Below are positions 9,714 through 13,710 of a stretch of 22,851 bases of DNA, piece by piece. The position numbers and the translations under genes are program-made. Each line of letters opens with the position of its first letter. Position 1 is the stretch's first letter. Source of the DNA: a virus; IMG/VR virus record IMGVR_UViG_3300028025_001665, positions 1 to 22,851 of that record; one strand, 5' to 3'. Under the pieces are notes generated by a model. That model did no database searches. It worked only from the letters and a program-made list of their open reading frames with translations, and had not been told where the DNA came from.

Positions 9714-10286
9714 TTAAGGTCTGAACGTTTTATTATAATCCGATAATCGGTTCAACCATCCCTTGAGAAATTTCGCGTTCTTAGATCCCGGCCGACCAAT
9801 CGCTTTGAAGAATCGTTCGCGCTCTGCTATCAGTGCGTCAAACAACTTTGTTGGATTGATAGAATTTGCGGCCTTAATCGTATTATTTCCGATTATCCCA
9901 TCTTTATCTACCATAACTCCACAGTTAAGTATAGCTCGCTGCAATGTCATACCGGCCTGCTTAACACCACTTCCCCATGCGACACCTGTCACAATTATTG
10001 CAATATTTGTGACTTTAAACTGATCACCTTTAACACCATCCCAATAACCTTTCTTGAACACTTTGAACCAGTTCTCGTCAGACATATTAAAGAAATCGTC
10101 GTCGTTGTCCTTACCGAAGTACTGAACCCATGCAGCGTAAGTGATCCCCATGTTTGTATGGTAACCTGACTTTCCCTTGTAAGGGGTTGGACATGGATAG
10201 CTAGATGCTGAGTCGGATGTATCTCTAGATAGGCCGCCCTCCCATTTCTTTGTAAAGGCAATATATTTTTTGATTAGCTCTTCCAT
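9714..10286 (-). CDS. Endolysin, glycoside hydrolase family 108-type muramidase
   Basis: This 190-residue protein degrades host peptidoglycan at lysis. The N-terminus carries KWEGGLSRD, in which Glu16 of the E-G-G motif is the expected catalytic acid of the family 108 (N-acetylmuramidase) fold. NMGITYAAW follows at about 46-54. The C-terminal half contains LQRAILNCG and DGIIGNNTIKAAN (about 116-142), matching the peptidoglycan-binding region usually joined to this catalytic domain. The length fits the family. There is no signal peptide, so it should depend on the holin encoded immediately upstream, whose stop overlaps its start by 13 bases. Confidence 0.92.
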   Translation of the reverse strand: MEELIKKYIAFTKKWEGGLSRDTSDSASSYPCPTPYKGKSGYHTNMGITYAAWVQYFGKDNDDDFFNMSDENWFKVFKKGYWDGVKGDQFKVTNIAIIVTGVAWGSGVKQAGMTLQRAILNCGVMVDKDGIIGNNTIKAANSINPTKLFDALIAERERFFKAIGRPGSKNAKFLKGWLNRLSDYNKTFRP

Positions 10287-10726
10287 TTGTCGCTCTCATT
10301 TTTAAGCCCTGTGATGAAGTCCCTGAATGATTTTAGCATATCCTTTCCGGTAACATCCTTATAGCTCTCGTTCATGCTCTTTACTTCAATGAATACAAAG
10401 AATAATGCAACAGCTTTAGTGAGCAATAACTCTATCGATATGAAGTGAGATATGATGTCGCCTGCGATGAATCTCTCTACCAAGTAGAAGAATGCAATTG
10501 ATCCAGCATATATACCACACTTAACGCCTGTAGCAAGTGCCTTTGTACTTTGAATGATGTCGCCTATCTTAGCTGATGATCCTTCTTTTCGTCTGCTCTG
10601 AACAGATCTCCAAATACCAAAACCGAAGTCAAACCCTATAGAAATTAATGCTATTGTGACCAATGGGCCAATTGGCGCAAATAGCGTGATAAAGCTTGAC
10701 AAAATGATTACGGTGTTGGTTTTCAT
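10274..10726 (-). CDS. Holin-like membrane protein
   Basis: This 150-residue protein has three or four hydrophobic segments: two near the N-terminus (about 5-35), one about 75-90 (GIYAGSIAFFYLVERF), and one about 98-116 (LLLTKAVALFFVFIE). A positively charged loop (RSVQSRRKEG) separates the first pair from the rest, and the C-terminal 35 residues are charged and soluble. The EVKSMNESYKDVTGKD segment after the last helix is typical of Bacteroidota phage holins as I recall them. Its start overlaps the spanin stop as ATGA and its end overlaps the endolysin start, placing it in the centre of a three-gene lysis cassette. Holins time lysis by opening the inner membrane. Confidence 0.85.
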   Translation of the reverse strand: MKTNTVIILSSFITLFAPIGPLVTIALISIGFDFGFGIWRSVQSRRKEGSSAKIGDIIQSTKALATGVKCGIYAGSIAFFYLVERFIAGDIISHFISIELLLTKAVALFFVFIEVKSMNESYKDVTGKDMLKSFRDFITGLKNESDKWKS

Positions 10727-11151
10727 ATCGATATTTTAATTACTCTATACCCCGTATAGAGTATAACAAAGATAATCAAAAAAGCTAAAATGTTGTTGAC
10801 TAGCTTCTTCCAAAACGGATACTTCTCGTAGTACTTAACTGGTATCTTTCTATCTACAATTTTCGTGATGTAAATAGGATCACATTTCCCTTGGATGTAT
10901 ACCTTCTTCTCTTTTGGAACATACCATGTCTTAACAGTGATTCTATCTTTAGATATGACCACTGTATCGATAAGCTCCTTTAACGTCACCACAGTGTCCG
11001 TATGGACCTCAGGGACGTACAAGGTGATGGTATCACGAATGGTGATAGTATCTGAAGTGATCAAATAAGGATACTTCTCGATTAATCGGTTAAACCTCTT
11101 CGTCGGACTGCACGCTGTCAGCAGGAGCATTATTATTACTAGATGCTTCAT
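10723..11151 (-). CDS. Single-chain spanin (u-spanin): lipoprotein with C-terminal membrane helix
   Basis: This 142-residue protein would join the outer and inner membranes and fuse them at lysis. It starts with a lipoprotein signal, MKHLVIIMLLLTAC, with Cys14 as the predicted lipidation site. Residues about 25-110 alternate in a beta-strand pattern rich in Thr, Val, Asp and Ile, suiting a periplasmic domain. A single membrane helix (about 117-135, NILAFLIIFVILYTGY) follows, then a short basic tail. A lipobox at one end and an inner-membrane anchor at the other is the defining layout of a unimolecular spanin, as in phage T1 gp11. Its place directly before holin and endolysin supports the call. 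I found no separate Rz gene. Confidence 0.82.
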   Translation of the reverse strand: MKHLVIIMLLLTACSPTKRFNRLIEKYPYLITSDTITIRDTITLYVPEVHTDTVVTLKELIDTVVISKDRITVKTWYVPKEKKVYIQGKCDPIYITKIVDRKIPVKYYEKYPFWKKLVNNILAFLIIFVILYTGYRVIKISI

Positions 11152-11245
11152 TTAAAATGTTTAGTAATGAGATAGCAAACTTACCCGGCATCTCACCGAT
11201 AAGTACTTCGATTTGCTTTACTTGTTCTTGATTTAATTGGATCAT
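11090..11245 (-). CDS. 51-residue protein overlapping the spanin gene, function unknown
   Basis: I found this small frame by translating the gap between the 89-residue gene and the spanin. It starts with ATG at 11245 (MIQLNQEQVKQIEVLIGEM) and stops at TAA at 11090, overlapping the first 62 bases of the spanin gene in another frame. The N-terminal 32 residues look like one amphipathic helical unit with a GEMPGKFAISLLNIL segment; the last 19 are Asn/Ala/Asp-rich. It fills what would otherwise be a 114-base gap in a packed operon, and similar small proteins beginning MIxLxxEQ are, as I recall, frequent before phage lysis genes in Bacteroidota. No function can be given. Confidence 0.6.
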   Translation of the reverse strand: MIQLNQEQVKQIEVLIGEMPGKFAISLLNILNEASSNNNAPADSVQSDEEV

Positions 11246-11536: not shown

Positions 11537-12097
11537 TTATAGTTTTACTAAATTATTTACTTTATTTAAAAATGAATCTACTTGCTCGCCAAATAGAAAC
11601 TTATATCCTTTTACGTTATAAAAACCCATGCTCTTGCAGGACTTTTGTATGTCTTTAGGTCCACAAGAAATCGCCTTAGCTGCGTCTGTGATTGAATCAT
11701 ATTTAGCTACTAAAAACATATTGTCTCTTGTGTACATATATACAGGCTTAACTTTACCAATAAGTCTTTGATAGTCTGAAATTTTCTTTTTATATTCATC
11801 TGTTCTTACTACTCCTTTAGGACTACAACCTTCCCTGCACATATTGCAACAAAGCTCATTGTCTACGTGTTCAAATAAATATTTTGTCTCTATTGAATTT
11901 AATTCCTCTTTTGAGCATTCGTGTATTACTTCAAATTTAGGCTCTCCATATTTATTAAAACAATTTTGAAGCCTGCTATTTGAATGAATTCCTTTTGTTA
12001 ACTCTCTTTTGTGTTGAGTGAATCTTCTATTTGTATCTACCGCTTGACCTATGTAATAATGATTATTACTAAATGTCATTTTATATATTCCTATCAT
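11537..12097 (-). CDS. GIY-YIG homing endonuclease with NUMOD-like DNA-binding region
   Basis: This is a selfish endonuclease gene rather than a virion component. I start it at the ATG at 12097, which overlaps the fibre stop as ATGA and places the GIY motif at residues 3-5; the protein is 186 residues. The catalytic domain shows GIYKMT, YYIGQ (14-18), the Arg-bearing NRRFTQHK (23-30) and a Glu-bearing SIETKYLFE. A Cys-rich stretch (CCNMCREGC), an SPKG…EYKKKISDYQR segment, and a repeat-like SITDAAKAISCGPKDIQKSC region follow, matching the modular NUMOD DNA-binding elements of phage homing endonucleases. It probably targets a fibre or lysis-region sequence in related phages. I see no intron around it. 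Confidence 0.9.
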   Translation of the reverse strand: MIGIYKMTFSNNHYYIGQAVDTNRRFTQHKRELTKGIHSNSRLQNCFNKYGEPKFEVIHECSKEELNSIETKYLFEHVDNELCCNMCREGCSPKGVVRTDEYKKKISDYQRLIGKVKPVYMYTRDNMFLVAKYDSITDAAKAISCGPKDIQKSCKSMGFYNVKGYKFLFGEQVDSFLNKVNNLVKL

Positions 12098-13710
12098 AAT
12101 AGCAATGCCCAACCTGTTGATTTGTAAATATAAAGACCTTCTGTTCCATCAGTTTGATAAACCTGAAGCCCAACAGCTGGAGAGGCAATAGCGGTACGCT
12201 GTGCTTGAGTTTGTCGTGGGGGTAAAAAGCCTTTTGTCGTAGAGTCCGCTTGTAATATTGCTGAAGCTACCGTATTTGCGTTTGTTCCTACTCTTAAAAA
12301 TGTGCTTATTGATACTGCACCTCCAAAATGATTTCTATCGTTTATCGTATTGTAAAATGCACCATTAAAAAATAATTGAGTTCCTCCAACTGTCAACGCT
12401 CCACTCACCCTCGCAGTACCATTAACGTCAAGTTGGTATCCTGCGTCTGTGGTGGTGTTGATTAGGACGTTGCCCGTTGCTGACTTTAATCTCATTGCAG
12501 TTGTAGCACCTGCGGCAACACGAAATAAAATATCATTTGCACCATCCAAATAAGTGTTGTTATCACTAAACATTTGTAGAATGGTAAAAGCTGCACCTCC
12601 CGTATATCTTGAGCGAATACCTTGAGCATTGGAAAGTTGAATAGCACCCGAAACAATTTCTAGTTTTTCAGATGGTGATGAAGTTCCCACACCTAAACGA
12701 GCATTCGTATTATCCCAAAACAAATTAGCCGATTCGCTCACCACATTTCCCGTACCTTCAAACAATACCCGTCCAACTGTACCCGAAGTGATTGCAGTCG
12801 TACCGATTGTGATTCCTGTTGAAATTGTGAACGTTCTGTTCGCGGTTAAATCTTGAGTAACGCCGTTAATTGTTAGCGTTCTAGAATCCGGAACCGGTGT
12901 GAATCCAAGTGCGTTTTGTTTACCGTTGAAAATTGTCCAATCCGCCGCGGAAAGATAGCCATCAACGGCCGTTGTAGCTTGCGGAATTGAAAGGGTTCGA
13001 TCCGCTGTTAAATCCCCGCCACCGGTCAAAGGTGCGGTTGTGGAAATTGTGCGCGTTTTTGGAGTTAATCCGCTTAAATCTTGATCCCCTGTATTGGATC
13101 CGGAAAGCGTTGTAATTCCAAGTTTTGTTTTTATTGAGGCCGTCGTTTCGTCCCCTGTATTTGTCCCGCTGTTGATTCCGGTAATGTCCGAAGTCAAGGC
13201 GATTGTTCCGCTTTGATTAGGTAAATAATGATCGCGCGTTTGAGTTAACAAAGTCAAAAATAAATTTGATTGAATTGTATCGGTTAAATGCAATTGCAAA
13301 AATCCATCCTCAACAACAAAAAGTTTGTGGCCGTCCGCGTCCTCAATATGAAAGTTTCCATCCGTGTAATGAATGGAGCCAAAGTTTCCATTTGGTTCGT
13401 CATAAAGGAAAATCTTTCGAACGCTTAAATCGTGCTCGCCGAGATTAACGTCCTGAGTTGCGCCCGAATAAGGAACTAAATCATCGAGCGCGTTTTGTAA
13501 ATCTGTTTGATCCGCAAGTGTTCCCGTAATATCGCCCCAATTAACAGCAACAGCCGCGCCAAGTTCAACGTAAGCATTTGAAGTATTGTTCCAATAATAC
13601 GCAACGTTCGCCGTTTGATCAATGTAAATAACGCGAGTTTTTCCAAGCGCTGGGAATTGCGATCTGTTTACAAATGGGCTTACTTGCGTAGGTATGTTTA
13701 TGTTACTCAT
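12094..13710 (-). CDS. Tail fibre / receptor-binding protein, possibly chimeric
   Basis: This 538-residue protein would recognise the host surface. The start is the ATG at 13710, overlapping the upstream stop as ATGA; a longer frame starts with TTG. The N-terminus (to about 60) includes RVIYIDQTANVAYYWNN, a virion-anchor type seen in Bacteroidota fibres. The middle holds repeat-like motifs: SGTNTGD, SGSNTGD, LTGGGDLTADRTL, DGYLSAADWTIFNGKQNAL and NGVTQDLTANRTFTIS. The C-terminal half has LFWDNTNARLGVGTSSPSEKL, INTTTDAGYQLDVNGTARV and ADSTTKGFLPPRQTQAQR, which recur in fibre tips of Bacteroidota phages and serve trimerisation or as a tip domain. Codon texture appears to change near 12800, with GCG/CCG-rich codons before it and fewer after. 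Confidence 0.85.
   Translation of the reverse strand: MSNINIPTQVSPFVNRSQFPALGKTRVIYIDQTANVAYYWNNTSNAYVELGAAVAVNWGDITGTLADQTDLQNALDDLVPYSGATQDVNLGEHDLSVRKIFLYDEPNGNFGSIHYTDGNFHIEDADGHKLFVVEDGFLQLHLTDTIQSNLFLTLLTQTRDHYLPNQSGTIALTSDITGINSGTNTGDETTASIKTKLGITTLSGSNTGDQDLSGLTPKTRTISTTAPLTGGGDLTADRTLSIPQATTAVDGYLSAADWTIFNGKQNALGFTPVPDSRTLTINGVTQDLTANRTFTISTGITIGTTAITSGTVGRVLFEGTGNVVSESANLFWDNTNARLGVGTSSPSEKLEIVSGAIQLSNAQGIRSRYTGGAAFTILQMFSDNNTYLDGANDILFRVAAGATTAMRLKSATGNVLINTTTDAGYQLDVNGTARVSGALTVGGTQLFFNGAFYNTINDRNHFGGAVSISTFLRVGTNANTVASAILQADSTTKGFLPPRQTQAQRTAIASPAVGLQVYQTDGTEGLYIYKSTGWALLL

Follow-up and report, generated by a model that had tools for sequence, protein, structure and literature searches.

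Judging from its layout and genomic setting, the protein designated P0001, which is encoded on the minus strand at positions 10723..11151 of a viral DNA stretch of 22,851 nucleotides (here referred to as the window), is very probably a unimolecular spanin (u-spanin). This agrees with a preliminary description in which the gene had been read as a single-chain spanin, since all structural features named there were found, were seen to be kept in 105 distinct relatives, and are accompanied by a lysis-cassette setting. With the u-spanin reading, P0001, which is named in none of the libraries searched, receives a name; by the searches made it belongs to no described u-spanin sequence family. What appears to be new is that the P0001 family carries a periplasmic cysteine which, by the statement of the published survey, the surveyed u-spanins are without (Kongari et al. 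2018, PMC6139136).

Layout of the P0001 protein

The coding sequence runs from 11151 to 10723 on the minus strand and specifies 142 amino acids, the same frame on the plus strand being interrupted by stops; the preliminary description gave the coordinates correctly, and the minus strand is to be added to them. The N-terminus, MKHLVIIMLLLTAC, contains a signal peptide (residues 1-13; 11113..11151, minus strand), which represents the least conserved part of the protein (mean column identity 0.49), and a lipobox with the sequence LTAC (residues 11-14; 11110..11121, minus strand) that is closed by the predicted lipidated Cys14 and followed by serine at position +2. This lipobox had been proposed before, and is borne out by the motif together with the adjoining hydrophobic stretch and by the invariance of its cysteine in all 105 distinct proteins. 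The equally anticipated C-terminal membrane helix was located at residues 117-135 (10747..10803, minus strand), the most hydrophobic 19-residue segment of the protein (Kyte-Doolittle mean of 2.02). The best 19-residue segment with a start between residues 21 and 94 reached a mean of 0.86, and the signal and residues 117-135 are the only strongly hydrophobic stretches of P0001. A short C-terminal tail of presumably cytoplasmic location follows (residues 136-142; 10726..10746, minus strand), its net charge being positive in 104 of 105 relatives. Both the lipobox and the helix were called by motif and hydropathy.

The predicted periplasmic domain (residues 15-116; 10804..11109, minus strand) consists of a short helix followed by DT-rich beta strands, as seen in two low-confidence AlphaFold2 models that were built with 28 and 68 sequences (mean pLDDT of 65.6 and 68.5, respectively, and a pTM of 0.28 for both). 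Each model contains a short helix at residues 16-26, several strands within residues 31-108, and a long helix at residues 113-141, which is the segment of highest pLDDT. The periplasmic part may thus be beta-rich as previously suggested, these strands being of low confidence in both models (region pLDDT mostly 42-76).

The combination of a signal, a lipobox and a single C-terminal helix was used as a home-made scan of 1411 ORFs of 60-300 aa, taken from both strands of the window and 58 relatives, and returned 56 matches, all of which are members of the P0001 family; L020, L039 and L054, which yielded no scan-passing member, are all three cut at their 5' ends. When the residues of P0001 were shuffled, 1 of 20000 shuffles passed the same scan. 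A separate 51-aa ORF is present upstream of the spanin gene (11090..11245, minus strand), the last 62 bases of which are shared, out of frame, with the signal-peptide region; its identity to the counterparts in the relatives L001 and G001 is 98% and 90%, respectively, and scanning it for a membrane segment retrieved none.

Relatives of P0001 and their conservation

Relatives were collected from IMG/VR by scans of increasing reach, which produced 58, 139 and 260 confirmed relatives, the best 80 of 139 and the best 80 of 260 being used. The resulting 207 parsed loci include many duplicate contigs, and counts are therefore expressed on the basis of 107 distinct genes or 105 distinct proteins, with six unparsed loci (L054, L124, L152, L153, L162 and L211) standing outside these counts. 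Identity to the window protein ranges down to 41-48%. Across the 105 distinct proteins the lipid cysteine and a proline at +3 are invariant, the +2 residue is serine (75 proteins) or threonine (30), and residues +2 to +6 are free of acidic residues in 101 cases. A hydrophobic C-terminal segment is kept in 105 of 105 proteins, the lowest 17-residue hydropathy maximum being 1.62. The residues that precede this helix also carry a net positive charge in most members, so that the positive-inside rule leaves the topology unsettled, and the topology given here rests on the lipoprotein signal. The ratio dN/dS, which was calculated for 738 pairs with 0.1<dS<1.5, has a median of 0.16 and a maximum of 0.52, showing at the level of codon substitutions that the family is under purifying selection.

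Ten relative contigs of 58-65 kb contain exactly one copy each of the P0001 family. In the four relative contigs that were scanned whole, the family member is in every case the only ORF with a lipobox and a C-terminal helix, and no separate o-spanin gene was retrieved from their cassettes by a lipobox scan. Other lipobox-like ORFs are limited to two of these contigs, G001 having one (57 aa) and G003 three (48-60 aa), with none in G002 and G005.

Searches for sequence kinship to a known or tested spanin returned no credible match in Pfam, PHROGs, NCBIfam or the phage collection. Chance-level matches were obtained for P0001 in Pfam (the best being Plk4_PB1, E 0.0018, with a score under the cut-off) and in PHROGs (best E 0.079), NCBIfam gave no match, and 14 further family members produced nothing credible against the family libraries. 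A tblastn search of 50,697 phage records with P0001 gave no match at E values up to 10; the relative L145, when used as a tblastn query, had a weak match in a phage from human faeces (E 0.3), which turned out to lie in an ORF unrelated to it. Cellular homologues were sought in genome contigs, where 30 pattern matches were obtained and none was confirmed. In a Foldseek comparison with viral models, two matches reached an E below 1e-3, neither of them to a named protein, and DUF6808 was matched weakly twice (E 0.028 and 0.035); nothing is concluded from these matches because the TM-scores are about 0.3.

The terminase of the window matches 87 phage records, corresponding to phages of Flavobacterium (68), Cellulophaga (15), Tenacibaculum (2) and Maribacter (1), and one uncultured phage (71% identity). 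The host of the window phage is therefore most likely a flavobacterium, as far as such terminase kinship indicates, and the hosts of these terminase-kin phages are Gram-negative.

Lysis cassette

P0001 is the first gene of a three-gene cassette in the window. Its stop codon overlaps the start of the next gene in the four bases ATGA (10723..10726, minus strand), an offset which is the same in 93 of 107 distinct genes. The overlapping gene specifies a holin-like protein of 150 aa (10274..10726, minus strand) that matches Phage_holin_4_1 with an E of 6.7e-4, just below the Pfam cut-off, and is itself overlapped by 13 bases by the gene of a 190-aa endolysin (9714..10286, minus strand). This endolysin contains a GH108 domain (Pfam E 4.2e-11) and a PG_binding_3 domain (E 1.8e-13), and matches a PHROG endolysin family with an E of 1.1e-29. 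Beyond the endolysin lie a GroES-like ORF and the genes of the terminase large subunit, the portal and a virion structural protein. The lysis-cassette setting assigned in the preliminary description is thus confirmed, the relatives likewise possessing a membrane protein and a hydrolase. The discovery of a separate two-gene spanin pair nearby, which the same description had named as evidence against its reading, did not occur: a lipobox scan of the window and of the four whole relative contigs of 64-65 kb found no such pair, and no second lipobox ORF was found in the window. Membrane-like segments are present on the coding strand of the window in P0001, the holin and one large tail-region ORF only. 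Directly upstream of the lysis region, a GIY-YIG / NUMOD1 homing endonuclease is encoded (11537-12112, minus strand), and in L137 and L138 visual inspection showed similar GIY-YIG-like ORFs downstream of the M15 gene.

A downstream ORF of at least 60 aa was available for 105 genes, and in 104 of them the first of these ORFs contains a membrane segment. A holin match is present in the window and the first 58 loci except for L041, which has two small ORFs instead. A hydrolase could be assigned behind 100 of the 107 distinct genes, based on phmmer likeness to, or a motif common to, representatives that had been checked against Pfam, PHROGs or NCBIfam. At least seven classes are represented, being Amidase_3 (41), Amidase_2 (21), Peptidase_M15_4 (13), PHROG endolysin 33083-like (10), GH108 (8), GH24 lysozyme (4) and TIGR02594/CHAP-like (3). 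Of the seven genes left over, four are followed at 1720-1768 bases by a Peptidase_M15_3-like gene (recognized by likeness to the L142 protein) and the other three are located where the sequence ends within 316 bases, meaning that all 104 genes with enough sequence have a hydrolase behind them.

When the hydrolase class was mapped by parsimony on a quick spanin tree of 98 rows, from which the seven genes without an initial hydrolase class were left out and in which 27 of 93 inner branches are weak, 23 changes of class were obtained (the least possible being 6, and the mean of shuffled assignments 52.3). On the well-supported branches alone, Amidase_2 needs at least 6 changes and GH108 at least 5. 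Considering that the hydrolase class changes while the spanin and usually the holin stay, the common theme of these loci is lysis, and a gene that is kept beside holins and varying endolysins is best explained as a third lysis component. The maintenance of the spanin-holin pair across endolysin swaps also provides a natural demonstration that a spanin need not match a particular hydrolase. In the subgroup L130-L143, two small membrane ORFs, an ORF with a membrane segment and a coiled coil, and a secreted ORF are placed between spanin and endolysin; these extra cassette ORFs could share the spanin's work.

A family of approximately 192 aa with the motif WWSAGCQV was observed in the endolysin slot of several loci (L014:5860-6438, L041:5859-6437 and relatives), which matches PHROG endolysin 33083 (E 4.5e-12 and 1.4e-9) and no Pfam family. 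Its cysteine motif resembles that of L,D-transpeptidase-like enzymes.

The invariant periplasmic cysteine

Each of the 105 distinct proteins contains one periplasmic cysteine at 74-80 residues past the lipid cysteine, within the motif GxC[DA], which in P0001 corresponds to Cys90 in the motif GKCD (10882..10884, minus strand). No further cysteine is present in 98 of these proteins, the other seven having one more in or after the helix. The codon is TGT in 75 and TGC in 32 of the 107 genes; as both are used, it is the residue that is kept and not the codon. One of the two search patterns employed in the widest scan includes the cysteine itself, and the unbiased count, which is limited for this reason to the relatives retrieved by cysteine-free patterns and the window, is 62 of 62.

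According to the survey, none of its 58 u-spanins has a periplasmic cysteine, from which its authors concluded that the mode of action of u-spanins is not that of two-component spanins (Kongari et al. 2018, PMC6139136), and this absence is repeated in a review (PMC7830690). Since P0001 has no second periplasmic cysteine, the simplest role for Cys90 would be an intermolecular disulfide between two copies, and it is proposed here that such a bond links them into a homodimer. That this flavobacterial phage family uses a covalent, disulfide-linked homodimeric u-spanin, the activity of which would depend on oxidation of the invariant periplasmic cysteine, is a proposal to which we give a nearly even chance. 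If it is true, the oxidation requirement that has so far been ascribed only to two-component spanins would hold for a single-gene bridge. The absence of periplasmic cysteines had, in the published accounts cited above, served as an argument that u-spanins differ fundamentally from Rz/Rz1; the P0001 family, with its one invariant cysteine, is an exception to that rule and opens the mechanism of single-chain spanins to direct testing.

Proposed mechanism and alternative explanations

In the proposed sequence of events, Sec would export the precursor, which would then undergo cleavage ahead of Cys14 and lipidation. Surface-export signals of Bacteroidota are described as rich in acidic residues (PMC5080379), and with serine at +2 and no acidic signal of this kind the lipid end would be directed to the inner face of the outer membrane. 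The C-terminal helix would remain in the inner membrane, with the short basic tail in the cytoplasm, and the beta-rich periplasmic part of about 100 residues, which is long enough if extended, would cross the envelope through the peptidoglycan mesh. The working unit may be a covalent homodimer derived from one gene, in which the Cys90 disulfide joins two copies as is the case for lambda Rz and Rz1. Once the inner membrane has been opened by the holin and the peptidoglycan has been cut by the endolysin, P0001 linkers could gather and refold, and would then pull both membranes together, leading to their fusion and to phage release.

Several points count against the u-spanin reading, these being the lack of sequence kinship to a known u-spanin in the libraries and the phage collection searched, the periplasmic cysteine, the first place in the cassette, the weak models, the extra ORFs of the L130-L143 subgroup and the lack of the usual holin in L041. 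A serious alternative, to which we attach a probability somewhat short of even, retains P0001 as a u-spanin of which Cys90 does not join copies, and instead acts within one chain, either structurally or in redox chemistry, or makes contact with another envelope protein. Published u-spanins are described in the sources cited as working without periplasmic cysteines, and the four u-spanin candidates of Bacteroidota phages that were re-found by our scan (phi12:1, RAP44, 11b and FCL-2) have none. However, a lone non-lipidated cysteine cannot form an intramolecular disulfide, which is the situation in the 98 proteins without another cysteine, whereas the extra cysteines of the remaining seven sit in or after the helix, and Cys90 stays invariant down to about 41-48% identity.

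Other explanations assign P0001 to a different activity. Both anchors could reside in the inner membrane, with the protein regulating the holin as an antiholin-like periplasmic sensor, a notion in line with the ATGA translational coupling to the holin and with the inner-membrane helix. Lipoprotein sorting to the inner membrane cannot be predicted in Bacteroidota from the +2 residue as it is in E. coli, and for this reason the sensor explanation retains some probability; it is nevertheless unlikely, as the gene is kept where unrelated small membrane proteins replace the holin (the L041, L130 and L145 types). It is slightly less probable still that P0001 is a lipoprotein of the envelope that serves a different purpose (superinfection exclusion or the masking of receptors, for instance) and stands beside lysis genes by chance: the sole match in that direction is a weak one of residues 1-29, i.e. 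the signal peptide, to PHROG Cor (E 0.35), whereas the place beside a holin and hydrolases of many classes is constant, the C-terminal helix (105 of 105) would not be needed by a surface or outer-membrane blocker, and 101 of 105 proteins have no acidic surface-export signal. Least probable of all, and very improbable in our opinion, is that P0001 represents half of a two-component system with an unrecognised partner, for which the extra membrane, coiled-coil and secreted ORFs of the L130-L143 subgroup might be candidates. P0001 already bears both anchors, though, and neither the window nor the four whole relative contigs offer a second cassette lipobox ORF, while few membrane-like ORFs occur on the window's coding strand.

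Comparison with known spanins

The u-spanins compiled in SpaninDB comprise 58 proteins in 13 families (Kongari et al. 2018, PMC6139136). As described there, T1 gp11 and the other SpaninDB u-spanins resemble P0001 in having an N-terminal lipobox, a C-terminal helix and a place in a lysis cassette, and the order reported for the T1 gp11 family, a short helix and then beta strands, is the same as that suggested by the P0001 models. In contrast, T1 gene 11 is reported as the last gene of its cassette, whereas P0001 is the first, and the SpaninDB u-spanins are stated to be without the periplasmic cysteine that is invariant in the P0001 family. Membership of the T1 gp11 family, which calls for an identity of at least 40% across 40% of the periplasmic part, was not found for P0001, as judged by tblastn against the phage collection. 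Lambda Rz and Rz1, which are reported to form homotypic intermolecular disulfides (PMC6139136, PMC7830690), also bridge the envelope, and these disulfides resemble the one proposed for Cys90; yet Rz/Rz1 consist of two genes and coiled coils, as opposed to one gene and predicted beta strands for P0001.

The phi12:1, RAP44, 11b and FCL-2 candidates, which judging from the scan are probably the genes used in the survey, share with P0001 a lipobox and a C-terminal helix near flavobacterial-phage endolysins, but differ from it in sequence. In phi10:1, a candidate with a lipobox and a helix has one periplasmic cysteine, its match to the gene of the survey being uncertain. A putative u-spanin has also been reported for Cellulophaga phage Ingeline (Bartlau et al. 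2021, PMC8776804), in which our scan retrieved one plausible candidate (L067:32051-32524; hypothetical in the record) that is presumably the u-spanin meant in that paper, and which shares one periplasmic cysteine with P0001 while being different in sequence. No u-spanin candidate was found by the scan in the stretches of phi13:2 and Nekkels, each of which has one in print, so that the scan misses some u-spanins. Bacteroidetes phages are said to use u-spanins exclusively (PMC12596118), and Bacteroides phage B40-8 is listed in the two-component tables of the 2018 survey (PMC6139136).

Other envelope proteins in related and compared phages

The scanned pieces of MW202828, which has 71% terminase identity with the window, contained no P0001-like protein, and the single match of the lipobox/helix scan in this phage is a 66-aa ORF far from the cassette. 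Between its holin and M15 endolysin, this phage encodes a different protein, which has a helix at the N-terminus and a DT-rich part; this may mean either that the different protein takes over the function of the P0001 family or that the family is dispensable. This protein (L225:4497-5120) and one of Flavobacterium phage elemoE (L226:7300-7845), likewise a terminase relative of the window, start with a membrane segment, which is followed by a DT-rich middle and by a C-terminal sequence suggestive of amphipathic strands, the last residue being F in elemoE; neither matches Pfam. The two may represent single-chain bridges of inverted orientation, in which the helix would lie in the inner membrane and the strands in the outer one. 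The elemoE protein matches 68 phage records, all of which are from Flavobacterium.

Directly after the GH108 endolysin, phages of Bacteroides and of Phocaeicola encode DUF6549 proteins (L062:3494-4072 and L063:3500-4069), which have a membrane segment at the N-terminus and a coiled coil. Their tblastn matches cover 169 phage records, 164 of which are named for Bacteroides, Phocaeicola or Parabacteroides, and a literature search for DUF6549 found nothing; these genes are candidate lysis genes. Overlapping gene pairs also occur after the GH108 endolysin in Cellulophaga phage phi13:2 (L251:751-1303) and in FPSV-S8 (L061:3507-4230), where one ORF has an N-terminal membrane segment and the other a signal-like start and a hydrophobic C-terminal end, and such pairs are possible two-gene envelope-disrupting pairs.
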